From positions 310,001-374,000 of the forward strand of contig NZ_JACNMM010000003.1 of assembly GCF_020529025.1 (NCBI RefSeq): a DNA stretch of 64,000 nt, written 5' to 3'. The notes under the pieces are model-generated. The model saw nothing but the letters and a program-made list of their open reading frames with translations. It did no database searches and was not told where the DNA came from. This document shows positions 7,249 to 62,077 of this stretch, one piece after another. The stretch's first letter is position 1; each line of letters opens with the position of its first letter. A program made the translations under genes and the position numbers. Source of the stretch: Oceaniglobus trochenteri (GTDB lineage Bacteria; Pseudomonadota; Alphaproteobacteria; Rhodobacterales; Rhodobacteraceae).

Positions 7249-8001
7249 CTAGAGATAACCGGCGCTGCGAAAGCTGAGCTCGGTCGATTTTCCGATGATC
7301 AGGTGGTCGTGCAGCACCAGACCAAGCGCCTGGCAGGCTTCGTTGATACGGGCGGTCATGGAAATGTCGCTGTCGCTGGGTGTCGGATCGCCAGAGGGGT
7401 GGTTGTGCACCAGGATCAGCGCCGAGGCGTTCAGCGCCAGGGCCCTCTTGACCACTTCGCGCGGATAGACCGGCACATGATCAACGGTGCCCTTGGCCTG
7501 TTCCTCATCTGCGATCACCACGTTCTTGCGGTCCAGGAACAGGATGCGGAACTGTTCCGTGTCGCGGTGCGCCATGGTGGTGTGGCAGTAATCGAGAACG
7601 GCATCCCAACTGCTGACCACATGGCGTTGCAGCACCCTTGCACGGGCGATGCGGTGCGCCGTGGCCTCGACGATCTTCAGGTCCTGCATCACGGCCTCGC
7701 CCACGCCCTCAACCTCCATCAGTTGCGCGGGGCTGGCCGCCATGACGCGCCCGAGATCGCCGAACCGGTCCATCAGGCGCCGGGCAAGCGGTTTGACATC
7801 CTGGCGCGGGATCGAACGGAACAGCAGCAGTTCCAGCATTTCGTAGTCGGGCACGGCATCGGCGCCCCCTTCCATGAAGCGCGAGCGCAGGCGCTTGCGA
7901 TGATCCTTGATGTAGGAGGGCAGCCGCGGCCCGCTCACCGGCGTGGCCCCGGTGAACAGGGGCAGGGGCGCTTCCGCGAAGGAGGAGGGACGACGTGTCA
8001 T
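7249..8001 (-). CDS. radC: RadC family JAB/MPN+ domain protein
   Basis: A 250-residue RadC-family protein from ATG 8001; an upstream extension of 27 codons is open but unlike the family. The N-terminal half contains a helix-hairpin-helix segment (LMEVEGVGEAVMQDLK, about residues 94-109). The C-terminal half is a JAMM metalloprotease-like domain with the zinc motif HNHPSGDPTPSDSD: H199, H201 and D212, plus the upstream Glu/Asp-rich region. The family was named for a DNA repair phenotype later shown to be due to another gene, so its real role is unclear; genome-defence and DNA-processing functions have been proposed. It reads leftward, downstream of dnaJ but separated by a long composite inverted repeat. 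Confidence 0.92.
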   Translation of the reverse strand: MTRRPSSFAEAPLPLFTGATPVSGPRLPSYIKDHRKRLRSRFMEGGADAVPDYEMLELLLFRSIPRQDVKPLARRLMDRFGDLGRVMAASPAQLMEVEGVGEAVMQDLKIVEATAHRIARARVLQRHVVSSWDAVLDYCHTTMAHRDTEQFRILFLDRKNVVIADEEQAKGTVDHVPVYPREVVKRALALNASALILVHNHPSGDPTPSDSDISMTARINEACQALGLVLHDHLIIGKSTELSFRSAGYL

Positions 8002-8084
8002 GCCGCCAGCATGGGCAAGAGAGGTAAACCGGTGGTTAACGCCATCGCTCCCAGGCCGATGCCCCGATGCCCGAAATGACAAAA

Positions 8085-8164
8085 GCCTCCGGCGGGGATA
8101 TTTACCCGACCAAAGATGAGGGCGACCCTTTCATCTTTGGTCTTCAAATATCCCCGCCGGAGGC
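8085..8164. repeat. Composite inverted repeat, two intergenic units head to head
   Basis: The outer arms GCCTCCGGCGGGGATATTT (8085-8103) and AAATATCCCCGCCGGAGGC (8146-8164) are a perfect 19-base inverted pair. Nested inside, GACCAAAGATGA (8108-8119) pairs perfectly with TCATCTTTGGTC (8131-8142) around an 11-base centre. The structure lies 26 bases past the dnaJ stop and 83 bases before the radC start, so it could terminate dnaJ transcription. The same unit recurs at 23267, 37697-37800, 56379 and, degenerate, at 62044. Function unknown. Confidence 0.9.
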
Positions 8165-8190: not shown

Positions 8191-9348
8191 TCAGTTCTTC
8201 ATGCCATCCCAGAAGGTCTTGACCTTCTTGAAGAATCCCGATGTCTCGGGATTGTTGTCTTCGGACAGCTTGTCAAACTCGCGCAGAAGTTCCTTCTGGC
8301 GCGACGTCAGGTTCACCGGCGTTTCGACGGCCAGTTCGATATACATGTCGCCATGTCCGCCACCCCGCAGCATGGGCATCCCCTTGCCGCGCAGGCGCAT
8401 CTGCTTGCCCGACTGGCTGCCGGCGGGCACCTTCACCCGGCTGCGGCCGCCGTCGATGTTGGGAACCTCGATATCGCCCCCAAGCGCGGCGGCGACGATC
8501 GACACCGGAACATGGCAGAACAGGTGCTGGTTCTCGCGCTGGAACAGCGGGTGATCGGCCACCTCGATGAAGATATAGAGATCGCCCGCAGGACCGCCGC
8601 GCAATCCGGCCTCGCCCTCACCGGACAGCCGGATGCGGGTGCCGGTTTCCACACCTGCCGGGATGTTCACCGACAGCGACCGGTCCTTCTGGACCCGGCC
8701 CTGGCCGCCGCAATCGTGGCAGGGGTTCTTGATGGTCTGGCCCGCGCCCGAACAGGTGGGGCAGGTGCGTTCGACCGTGAAGAAGCCCTGCTGGGCGCGC
8801 ACCTTGCCCATGCCCGCACAGGTCGGGCAGACGCTGGGTTCCGAGCCGCCTTCGGCACCGGTGCCGCTACAGGTCGAGCAGGCAAGGGCCGTCGGCACGT
8901 TGATCGTCTTTTGCAGGCCGTTGAAGGCGTCTTCCAGCGAGATGCGCAGGTTGTAGCGCAGGTCGGAGCCGCGGGTGGCCCTCTGGCCGCCACGGCCGCC
9001 GCCGCGCCCGCCCATCATGTCGCCGAACAGGTCGTCGAAGACATCGCTGAAGGCGCTGGCAAAATCGCCCTGACCGCCCGCACCGAAGCCGCCGCCCTGC
9101 CCGCCGCGCGGTGCATGGCCGCCTTCGAAGGCCGCGTGACCATAGCGGTCATAGGCGGCTTTCTTCTCGGGGTCCTTCAGAACGTCGTAGGCTTCGTTCG
9201 CTTCCTTGAACTGTGCTTCGGCGTTGGGGTTGTCGGAGTTGCGGTCGGGGTGCAGTTCCTTGGCCTTCTGGCGAAAGCCCTTCTTGATCTCGTCCGCCGT
9301 GGCGCCCTTCTTGACGCCCAGTGTTTCGTAATAATCGCGCTTTGCCAT
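8191..9348 (-). CDS. dnaJ: Chaperone DnaJ (type I Hsp40)
   Basis: A 385-residue co-chaperone that delivers unfolded clients to DnaK and stimulates its ATPase. The J domain covers residues 1-70 with the catalytic HPD at 33-35. A Gly/Phe-rich linker follows (about 76-115, including [19 protein letters not shown]). Four zinc-binding CxxCxGxG repeats come next: [24 protein letters not shown] and CHDCGGQG. The C-terminal client-binding domain ends near KTFWDGMKN. Length and domain order are those of a full type I protein. It lies 74 bases downstream of dnaK on the same strand, with a 10-bp hairpin between, so it is probably transcribed with dnaK at a lower level. Confidence 0.97.
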
Positions 9349-13224: not shown

Positions 13225-14046
13225 TCAGCGCCTCGCGCTCCAGCTGATCGAGGCGTGTTTTCGGGTATAGAACTCGCCCATCAACCCCACCATCAGCAGG
13301 GCAATCGAAACATAGAGCGGATATTCCACCGACGAATTGTGGGGCGAATAATTGATGAAGGCATATCCGCGCGCCTGATCGATGGTGTGGAACAGCGGAT
13401 TCCAGTCGAAGAACGCCAGCATGGTCGAGGGCAGGTTATTGGCCACGAACATCTTGCCCGACGCGATCATGTTGGCCCGGGTATAGATCATCGACAGGAT
13501 GTTCACGAAACTGGGCGCCCAGGGCTTCATCGCCAGGAAGATCAGGCCGATCGCCACCCCCGAAAACCACGACAGGATGACCATGCCCAAGGCGCCGATC
13601 GGGTCCCAGATATGCACCGGCCCCCATATGACATGATAGAAATACATCACGATCCCCATCGACAGAAGCTGGATGTAAAGCGCCCCCAGCGCCGCCGAGG
13701 CAATCGAGATTGCCGTGGTCATGGGGGCGTGTTTCATCATCGCCGATGCCGGGCCTTCCGACCCCAGGATCGCCGTCACCGTGCGGGTATGCACCATGTA
13801 TAGAAAGATGCCCGACATGATGTAGACCAGGAAATCGCCCCGGATCGCACTGCCCCGCATTCCCAGAACCGAGAACAGCAGGAAGAACGCGGCGACGAAG
13901 ATCACCGTCTGCAGGATGTTCATCAGGATCGACATCAGCGCGTTCGAGTGGGTCTTGCGGATGCTGCGGACGGTGTTGTGGTAGATCAGTTCAAGGATGT
14001 TGGCGGCCGATCCAAGGCGCGTCTCGCGTGTCTGGCGCTGGAACAT
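13225..14046 (-). CDS. ABC-2 type exporter permease (polysaccharide-export like)
   Basis: A 273-residue inner-membrane permease with about six hydrophobic segments, started at ATG 14046 (MFQRQTRETRLGSAANILELIYHN). The layout, a cytoplasmic amphipathic start, then ILMNILQTVIFVAAFFLLFSV, then a long C-terminal membrane block, is that of KpsM/RfbA-class ABC-2 proteins that move capsular or O-antigen glycans, though teichoic acid or drug exporters share the fold. No ATPase gene is adjacent in the window, so the partner must lie elsewhere. It is divergent from cysQ and upstream of the acidic repeat gene on the same strand, separated from it by the AT-rich gap. Confidence 0.8.
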   Translation of the reverse strand: MFQRQTRETRLGSAANILELIYHNTVRSIRKTHSNALMSILMNILQTVIFVAAFFLLFSVLGMRGSAIRGDFLVYIMSGIFLYMVHTRTVTAILGSEGPASAMMKHAPMTTAISIASAALGALYIQLLSMGIVMYFYHVIWGPVHIWDPIGALGMVILSWFSGVAIGLIFLAMKPWAPSFVNILSMIYTRANMIASGKMFVANNLPSTMLAFFDWNPLFHTIDQARGYAFINYSPHNSSVEYPLYVSIALLMVGLMGEFYTRKHASISWSARR

Positions 14047-23266: not shown

Positions 23267-23290
23267 TCATCTTTGGTCCGCAAATATCCC
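23267..23290 (-). repeat. Single intergenic unit just before the P1 peptidase start
   Basis: On the minus strand this reads GGGATATTTGCGGACCAAAGATGA, the core shared with the composite repeats at 8085 and 37697. The unit ends eight bases before the start codon at 23259 and points toward the gene. The G/C-rich left block found elsewhere (GCCTCCGGCGG) is replaced here by CCCCCC. Confidence 0.85.
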
Positions 23291-23310
23291 GGGGGGAATC
23301 GCTGCAGGCG

Positions 23311-23330
23311 ATGGGGGGCTGGCCCCCCAT
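23311..23330 (-). terminator. Hairpin after the SDR gene
   Basis: ATGGGGGG (23311-23318) pairs with CCCCCCAT (23323-23330) around CTGG, eight bases past the SDR stop in the direction of leftward transcription. Together with the repeat core it forms the same hairpin-plus-unit pair seen upstream of queG at 56353-56400. Confidence 0.55.
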
Positions 23331-37696: not shown

Positions 37697-37800
37697 ATCA
37701 TCTTTGGTCGTGAAATACCCCCGCCGGAGGCCCTGACTCTCTTTCGGAGCGACAGGAACTTTCAATGCCTCCGGCGGGGATATTTGCAGGACCAAAGATG
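37697..37800. repeat. Composite inverted repeat, two intergenic units tail to tail
   Basis: Left unit (minus-oriented): ATCATCTTTGGTC at 37697-37709 then AAATACCCCCGCCGGAGGC at 37713-37731. Right unit (plus-oriented): GCCTCCGGCGGGGATATTT at 37767-37785 then GACCAAAGATG at 37790-37800. The 19-base arms match with one mismatch around a 35-base centre. The order of blocks is the reverse of the copy at 8085-8164. It lies between dctM and motB and could end dctPQM transcription. Confidence 0.9.
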
Positions 37801-43986: not shown

Positions 43987-44071
43987 GGTGCCCAGGAGAG
44001 GACTCGAACCTCCACACCGTTGCCAGTACTAGCACCTGAAGCTAGCGCGTCTACCATTCCGCCACCTGGGC
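43986..44071 (-). tRNA. tRNA-Leu (anticodon CAG), CCA encoded
   Basis: On the minus strand the acceptor GCCCAGG (44071-44065) pairs with CCTGGGC, followed by discriminator A and an encoded CCA. The anticodon arm is CTAGC-TTCAGGT-GCTAG, giving CAG, which reads the common codon CUG. A long variable arm (about 15 bases, TACTGGCAACGGTG region) and the T arm GGTTCGAGTCC confirm the class II leucine type. Total length is 86. Confidence 0.96.
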
Positions 44072-56352: not shown

Positions 56353-56400
56353 GTGGGGGCCTTGCCCCCACACCCCCAGGATATTTGCGGACCAAAGATG
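56353..56400 (+). repeat. Hairpin plus intergenic unit ending in the queG start codon
   Basis: GTGGGGGC (56353-56360) pairs with GCCCCCAC (56364-56371), then the unit core GGATATTTGCGGACCAAAGATG runs from 56379 to 56400. The final ATG is the likely queG start. The same hairpin-plus-core pair occurs on the minus strand at 23267-23330. Confidence 0.8.
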
Positions 56401-62043: not shown

Positions 62044-62077
62044 GCCTCTGGCGGGGATGTTTGATGACCAAGGATGA
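62044..62077 (+). repeat. Degenerate intergenic unit before the deacetylase-like gene
   Basis: GCCTCTGGCGGGGATGTTT (62044-62062) then GACCAAGGATGA (62066-62077) matches the full unit of 8085-8119 with three changes. It ends eight bases before the start codon at 62085, the same spacing as at the P1 peptidase gene. Confidence 0.8.

Follow-up and report, generated by a model that had tools for sequence, protein, structure and literature searches.

A dispersed two-part gene-end repeat with a genome-specific tag in Oceaniglobus trochenteri and other Rhodobacteraceae

The DNA uptake sequences of the Neisseriaceae and Pasteurellaceae occur as species dialects on both strands and form inverted pairs at gene ends; the known examples are dense, at near one per kb, and common in genes. 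REP sequences and REPINs with their RAYT proteins are short, extragenic and repeated, form inverted doublets and occur as several types per genome, with a dominant sequence in each genome and an inferred co-evolution with the cognate protein (PMC3116915). GTAG- and CGTC-tagged palindromic repeats combine a hairpin with a terminal conserved tag (PMC3733652), in a text that contains none of the words Rhodobacter, Paracoccus, Roseobacter or alphaproteobacteria. The element described here was noticed in a 64,000-nucleotide stretch of the Oceaniglobus trochenteri genome (hereafter the window). Rfam returned no family at gathering score for positions 8085-8164 of the window, only two sub-threshold matches to miRNA families, and no published name was found in the open-access literature, so that the sequence-only reading, which knew of none, stands on this point. 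In passages located by word search, two papers on 3′ ends and RNase E in R. sphaeroides (PMC7866481, PMC6238624) likewise make no mention of such an element. Elsewhere in the window, Rfam matched the Ruegeria cis2 sRNA (RF02645, 80.1 bits) at 13331-13480 on the plus strand and a tRNA gene at 43989-44071 on the minus strand.

At 8085-8164, adjoining dnaJ and a radC-type gene, two copies of one unit lie head-on. The sequence-only reading had reported two nested perfect inverted pairs with arms of 19 and 12 bases, and both are perfect: the outer arms (8085-8103/8146-8164) span 19 bp, or 20 bp counting the A/T at 8084/8165, and the inner arms (8108-8119/8131-8142) span 12 bp. It had also taken the palindrome to be the unit and this copy to be the founder; most copies are single, and nothing gives 8085-8164 special standing. 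The unit does recur at the further places that had been pointed out (23268-23289 and 37699-37720 on the minus strand; 37767-37800, 56379-56400 and 62055-62076 on the plus strand), and the features concerned are as follows.

7249-8001, minus strand: radC-type gene, its start facing the pair at 8085-8164
8085-8095, plus strand: type I left module GCCTCCGGCGG of copy 1, read from the sequence
8096-8118, plus strand: core of copy 1, comprising GGATATTT, the spacer ACCC and the tag GACCAAAGATG, read from the sequence
8119-8131, no strand: stretch separating the two tags of the inverted pair, read from the sequence
8132-8153, minus strand: core of copy 2, with the spacer GAA on the minus strand, from the genome-wide core search
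8154-8164, minus strand: type I left module of copy 2, read from the sequence
8191-9348, minus strand: dnaJ, its 3′ end facing the pair at 8085-8164
23268-23328, minus strand: type II copy (core 23268-23289) with G-run hairpin module, core and tag, in the gap between a peptidase S58-type and a short-chain dehydrogenase-type gene
37699-37731, minus strand: type I copy (core 37699-37720), left half GGGTATTT with one mismatch, back to back with 37767-37800
37767-37800, plus strand: type I copy with a 4-nt spacer (core at 37778), in the gap between a DctM-type gene and a MotB plug domain gene
56353-56400, plus strand: type II copy (core 56379-56400), in the gap between a GST-type and a queG-type gene
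62044-62076, plus strand: diverged type I copy (core 62055-62076, two core mismatches), in the gap between a response-regulator and a histone-deacetylase-domain gene

The statement that the same unit stands at every place is correct for the core, but GCCTCCGGCGG is one of two left modules, with a hairpin at 23268 and 56379. Similarly, the copies in the window all lie between genes, as had been claimed, except that at 56379 and 62055 our home-made gene caller placed the start codon of the next gene at an ATG inside the unit, calls that may or may not be right. The window holds 11 sites for GACCAAAGATGA at up to two mismatches (shuffle mean 3.34, largest 7) and five for GCCTCCGGCGGGGATATTT at up to three mismatches (shuffle mean 0.04, largest 1; 100 shuffles in each case). 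Matches to the whole unit comprise five exact copies, one with one mismatch and one with two, against a single control match at four mismatches.

Genome-wide, the constant part of the unit consists of GGATATTT, a spacer and the 11-base tag GACCAAAGATG. Within one genome both halves of the site are nearly invariant and the spacer is free, being mostly three bases long, less often four and once two; the suggestion of a distinctive core made up of the AT-containing part alone thus falls short, as the tag is equally constant within the genome. In type I copies, which account for 27 of 81 copies in O. trochenteri and 19 of 53 in a congener (G005), GCCTCCGGCGG lies immediately 5′ of the core, mostly with an A or T in front, and is identical in all 27 of the former, a class picked by its last nine letters. 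Type II copies carry Gn-loop-Cn, often a second, variable stem, then Cn, one to three bases and the core. Their run lengths are correlated across 67 copies (Pearson coefficients of 0.87 for G1-C1, 0.86 for G1-C2 and 0.72 for C1-C2), and no correlation was found between C2 and the downstream G-run (-0.26). In both species the G-run and the two C-runs have matching lengths of 3 to 7, and the second C-run of some copies, L066 being one, is a mirror image of the G strand and not its complement. Triplex formation or strand exchange could produce such correlated lengths, as could several other mechanisms. The second stem of type II covaries, with both sides changed in 16, 13 and 16 of 55 sequences at three pairs, the same pairs being broken or gapped in 20, 10 and 7 of the 55. 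The RNAalifold consensus of type II is weak (-2.72 kcal/mol), and for two single type II copies the fold is no more stable than that of their shuffles (z -1.0 and -0.4). Compared with re-paired flanks, the actual flanks favoured a stem enclosing the core in G005 (p 0.001, 2000 shuffles) and in the two species combined (p 0.0035), with no excess in O. trochenteri copies alone (p 0.15) or in type I (p 0.44).

Across the O. trochenteri genome, the core with 3-nt spacing was matched 87 times at up to three mismatches, 77 of them exact, compared with none for the reversed control, and is therefore far commoner than expected; a pattern with a 5-nt spacer had no matches. The exact tag occurs 108 times in 4,588,933 bases, roughly one per 42 kb, and 100 of the 108 sit in the arrangement TTT-N3/4-tag. 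Conversely, the left-hand pattern CSGGRATATTT was found at 62 places and is followed by the tag at 57 (55 exact, one with one mismatch and one with three), leaving five without. Bare tags were considered as insertion targets and rejected: only three of 100 listed tags (of the 108) lacked both TTT-N3/4 and a left half within one mismatch, and these proved to be one copy with a 2-nt spacer and two that look like chance. One inverted pair (L267, near position 2007) has a second partner with the tag and without the GGATATTT half.

The left half of the site is common to the family Rhodobacteraceae, and the right-hand tag is specific to the genome. The complete O. trochenteri unit was exact in only four of 296 family genomes, with 77 copies in its own and 6, 6 and 1 in the three others, and matches by name, in at least 75 stretches, included Tranquillimonas alkanivorans, Pseudoponticoccus marisrubri, Maliponia aquimaris, Pararhodobacter marinus, Maritimibacter sp. 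and Paracoccus MAGs; the occasional single match in an unrelated bacterium appears to be due to chance. The left module CTCCGGCGGGGATATTT, in comparison, was exact in 99 of 199 family genomes, in up to 145 copies, and its presence in about half of the family genomes searched makes the element relevant to the annotation of transcript ends, the masking of repeats and the comparison of strains in this group. Outside the family, GCCTCCGGCGGGGATATTT was found in none of 381 sampled alphaproteobacterial genomes (387 were searched, six of them family members, of which two were positive). Among the matches listed, most relatives with several copies showed one clear tag after the shared module, including CCAAGAAGTG in G006, GCAAAATGAAG in G014, GTCCAGCCCGAG in G028, GGACAGAAGAA in G007, AGCAAAAGATG in G484, CCCAAAGAAG in G513, CGACAATGAAG in G555 and GAACAAAAGAAG in G552, along with others; the congener G005 has AAGCAAAGATG. 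G003 and G606 have a tag in common, and G003, G008, G028 and G458 each carry several, again among the matches listed. Many of the tags resemble variations on a single A/G-rich theme of the CAAAGAAG kind, from which the main tag of G028 departs. Plasmid records, which bore little annotation, held partial relatives in Rhodobacterales; plasmid matches in Moraxella, Bacillus, Pantoea and Pseudomonas were weak (E about 0.2-3) and judged to be chance, and a scanned 50-kb stretch of Paracoccus versutus gave no match.

Both Oceaniglobus species also carry a second half-site, GGAGTATTT, paired with another tag. This was GCAAGAAAG in four of five cases in O. trochenteri (L038, L047, L049 and L064) and CAAAGAAGAA in eight of nine places in the G005 tiles, with a further variant, TCAAAGAAGAAG, in L266. 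In the stretches searched for this second dialect, neither GGATATTT with the second tag nor the converse pairing was seen, and this pairing of half-site and tag points to one reader per pair. A tag that is uniform within a genome and usually varies between species suggests an undescribed recognition system in Rhodobacteraceae. What has to be accounted for is a bipartite constant site with a free spacer, uniform across a genome, differing as dialects between genomes, placed at gene ends and dispersed by copying. The reading that we favour, tentatively and at close to an even call, is that of a gene-end element, REP-like and specific to the family, with a bipartite site recognised by a putative co-evolving factor.

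The two species were compared at orthologous gaps, using 91 O. trochenteri copies and 53 exact G005 units at 40 loci. Eight gaps, chosen for holding a unit in both species and by their tag patterns, have orthologous genes on both sides, with the units in the same orientation in seven and inverted in one, and in all eight O. trochenteri carries a GACC-type tag and G005 an AAGC-type tag. By eye, the left module is alike in five of these gaps (L026/L150, which is inverted, L055/L122, L059/L131, L067/L152 and window 56379/L149) and different in three, among them L027/L134, and the bases around the units look unrelated. The G005 gap orthologous to 56353-56400 holds the G005 tag in the same orientation. 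In a set drawn independently of the unit, covering 18% of G005 and nine orthologous loci (11 O. trochenteri copies), the exact G005 unit was present in the same orientation at three loci, a second-dialect unit, a decayed unit and, in the dnaJ gap, a GGAGTATCC form at one each, and no unit was found at the remaining three. Sites and some modules therefore persist while tags change, and loss, decay and switching occur too. Within 797,580 bases of G005, 18 places matched its unit at up to four mismatches (reversed control, none), 13 of them exact, two with one mismatch and one each with two, three and four, so that copies are mostly exact with a thin tail of decay. Known mechanisms do not readily explain how about a hundred dispersed sites, some in shared gaps, come to differ in concert between congeners.

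Copies also resemble one another at unrelated loci. Type II modules are identical at 31-32 of 32 positions in 38 such pairs over three genomes (6 in O. trochenteri, 6 in G005 and 26 in the Paracoccus MAG S5R_Sa_12), pairs within one family not being independent; near-identity extends over 40-60 nt, tapering off upstream at the G-run and downstream where the tag ends. The spacers differ in 34 of the 38 pairs, the four identical ones all being from O. trochenteri (none from G005 or the MAG), where one three-copy family and one pair have kept the same spacer. Either each new copy usually receives a fresh spacer, or the spacer changes far more rapidly than the sequence around it; homogenisation by ordinary recombination over so short a tract seems, by argument, unlikely. 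Near-identical copies of 40-60 nt and inverted pairs would also be produced by a purely selfish miniature element of the REP or MITE kind, in which module and tag are transposase ends, the tag reflects the transposase of the species and gene ends are the least harmful places to land. The patchy occurrence of the O. trochenteri unit (four family genomes of 296 and several named genera), the several tags of some genomes among the matches listed, and the loss, decay and re-tagging at orthologous loci fit such an element as well. Nonetheless, we consider it somewhat unlikely, given that the spacer sequence does not recur in the flanks (best z 2.64 over many offsets), that units occupy eight orthologous gaps in both congeners, seven in the same orientation, and that the O. 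trochenteri genome had no match to the Y1_Tnp/RAYT family PF01797 at E <= 0.001 (a search covering the Y1 type only, with control matches in 5 of 14 genomes).

Placement was assessed for 134 exact units (81 from O. trochenteri and 53 from G005, a partial set for either genome), with genes called by the home-made caller, which assigned 90% of the stretches used as coding. All but four of the 134 are intergenic (130), so copies do not fall inside genes as often as between them, and 53 lie between convergent genes, 47 in tandem gaps along both genes, 27 in tandem gaps against both and three between divergent genes. In 15 O. trochenteri copies no more than 11 nt separate the end of the tag from an opposing gene's stop, and another exact copy occurs within 160 nt of 18 of 81 copies in O. 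trochenteri and 14 of 53 in G005, counting exact partners. These counts indicate that the element marks gene ends, with what may be a weak preference for orientation. The sequence-only reading is upheld in seeing a family dispersed outside genes, with a conserved core that would be superfluous to a plain terminator, and in its comparison with REP elements, given the gene-end position and some inverted pairs.

Ordinary intrinsic termination, with a GC hairpin, a short U-rich stretch and an incidental tag, would explain the position at gene ends, the hairpin followed by AUAUUU and the long hairpins formed by convergent pairs, of which 8085-8164 has a predicted RNA fold of -60.3 kcal/mol (z -11.9); for the pair lying back to back at 37713, z is -5.4. 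Single copies in tandem gaps also show a sense bias, with 40 along and 20 against both genes in the two species together (binomial p 0.013; 20 versus 13 in O. trochenteri alone, p 0.30). Yet this still leaves a third of them backwards, and the constant, genome-specific 11-mer downstream of the U-stretch and the pairing of half-site with tag are not expected of a terminator.

Further copies occur inside gene-transfer-agent-like clusters. A type I module was present in 42 stretches of a viral collection (L323-L364), 37 of which have a mutually alike terminase, with terminase and portal named by Pfam in one representative each; we take these clusters to be the gene transfer agents of Rhodobacterales. 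As the contigs were found via the module, their prevalence is biased, whereas the recurring position of the module is not. In 29 of 32 distinct regions the module lies within 250 nt after the terminase stop (22 sense, 5 antisense and 2 pairs), and one of the three remaining regions has it at about 284 nt; by eye, about twenty different tags occur across the terminase-adjacent copies. Terminase and portal presumably form one operon, in which a strong terminator between the two would be surprising. Unconditional termination is thus hard to square with the terminase-portal copies and with the 20 of 60 tandem singles that oppose both genes, and ordinary terminators are an improbable explanation overall. 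Least credible is a self-DNA label like the uptake sequences, whose dialects would accumulate as DNA exchange by transformation or gene transfer agents favours tagged fragments: the dialects of the species, the presence of mostly exact copies on either strand, the inverted pairs at gene ends, occurrence in one family only among the genomes sampled and the recurrent copy in gene-transfer-agent-like clusters agree with it, but about 108 tags in 4.59 Mb, almost none of them in genes, make it highly improbable.

If the element is, as we favour, a gene-end site with a co-evolving reader, each dialect would have a single trans-acting factor that reads GGATATTT and the tag jointly. This factor would probably be a protein that binds DNA or RNA, and as its specificity drifted or was swapped between species it would drag the sites along. 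The bound, structured site might then act as a two-way transcript boundary, either as a roadblock or by protecting 3′ ends, and dispersal might proceed by a form of copying in which module and tag are retained and the spacer is usually renewed. A wider version is possible, if doubtful: a family-wide Rhodobacteraceae system with a horizontally exchangeable factor, sites at gene ends and in gene-transfer-agent clusters, at least one dialect per species and, at each change of dialect, the in situ rewriting of some hundred sites per genome, possibly through copying with a random 3-nt joint. The shared left half and variable tag offer a direct bait for the putative factor, and the element provides a clean test of how a factor and its sites co-evolve genome-wide.

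Compared with known systems, the element shares with DNA uptake sequences its species dialects, its occurrence on both strands and its inverted pairs at gene ends, but is far sparser and nearly absent from coding sequence. Like intrinsic terminators, it sits after genes and has a hairpin that runs into a short U-rich stretch; unlike them, it has a conserved downstream tag and what may be only a weak orientation rule. A hairpin with a terminal tag is also found in GTAG and CGTC repeats, whereas the tag of the element is 11 nt long and genome-specific, and letter counts at the type I and type II borders showed neither a terminal GTAG nor a terminal CGTC. The closest resemblance is to REP sequences and REPINs, as the element is extragenic, repeated, located mostly at gene ends, partly arranged in inverted doublets and present as several types with a dominant sequence. 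It differs from the REP/REPIN-RAYT system in that its own genome has no RAYT match and in being bipartite, with a free spacer and a swappable 11-mer, and from REPINs in consisting mostly of single copies with a left module common to the whole family. By the features tested, the element is not a member of the REP/REPIN class, but it is REP-like in its behaviour.
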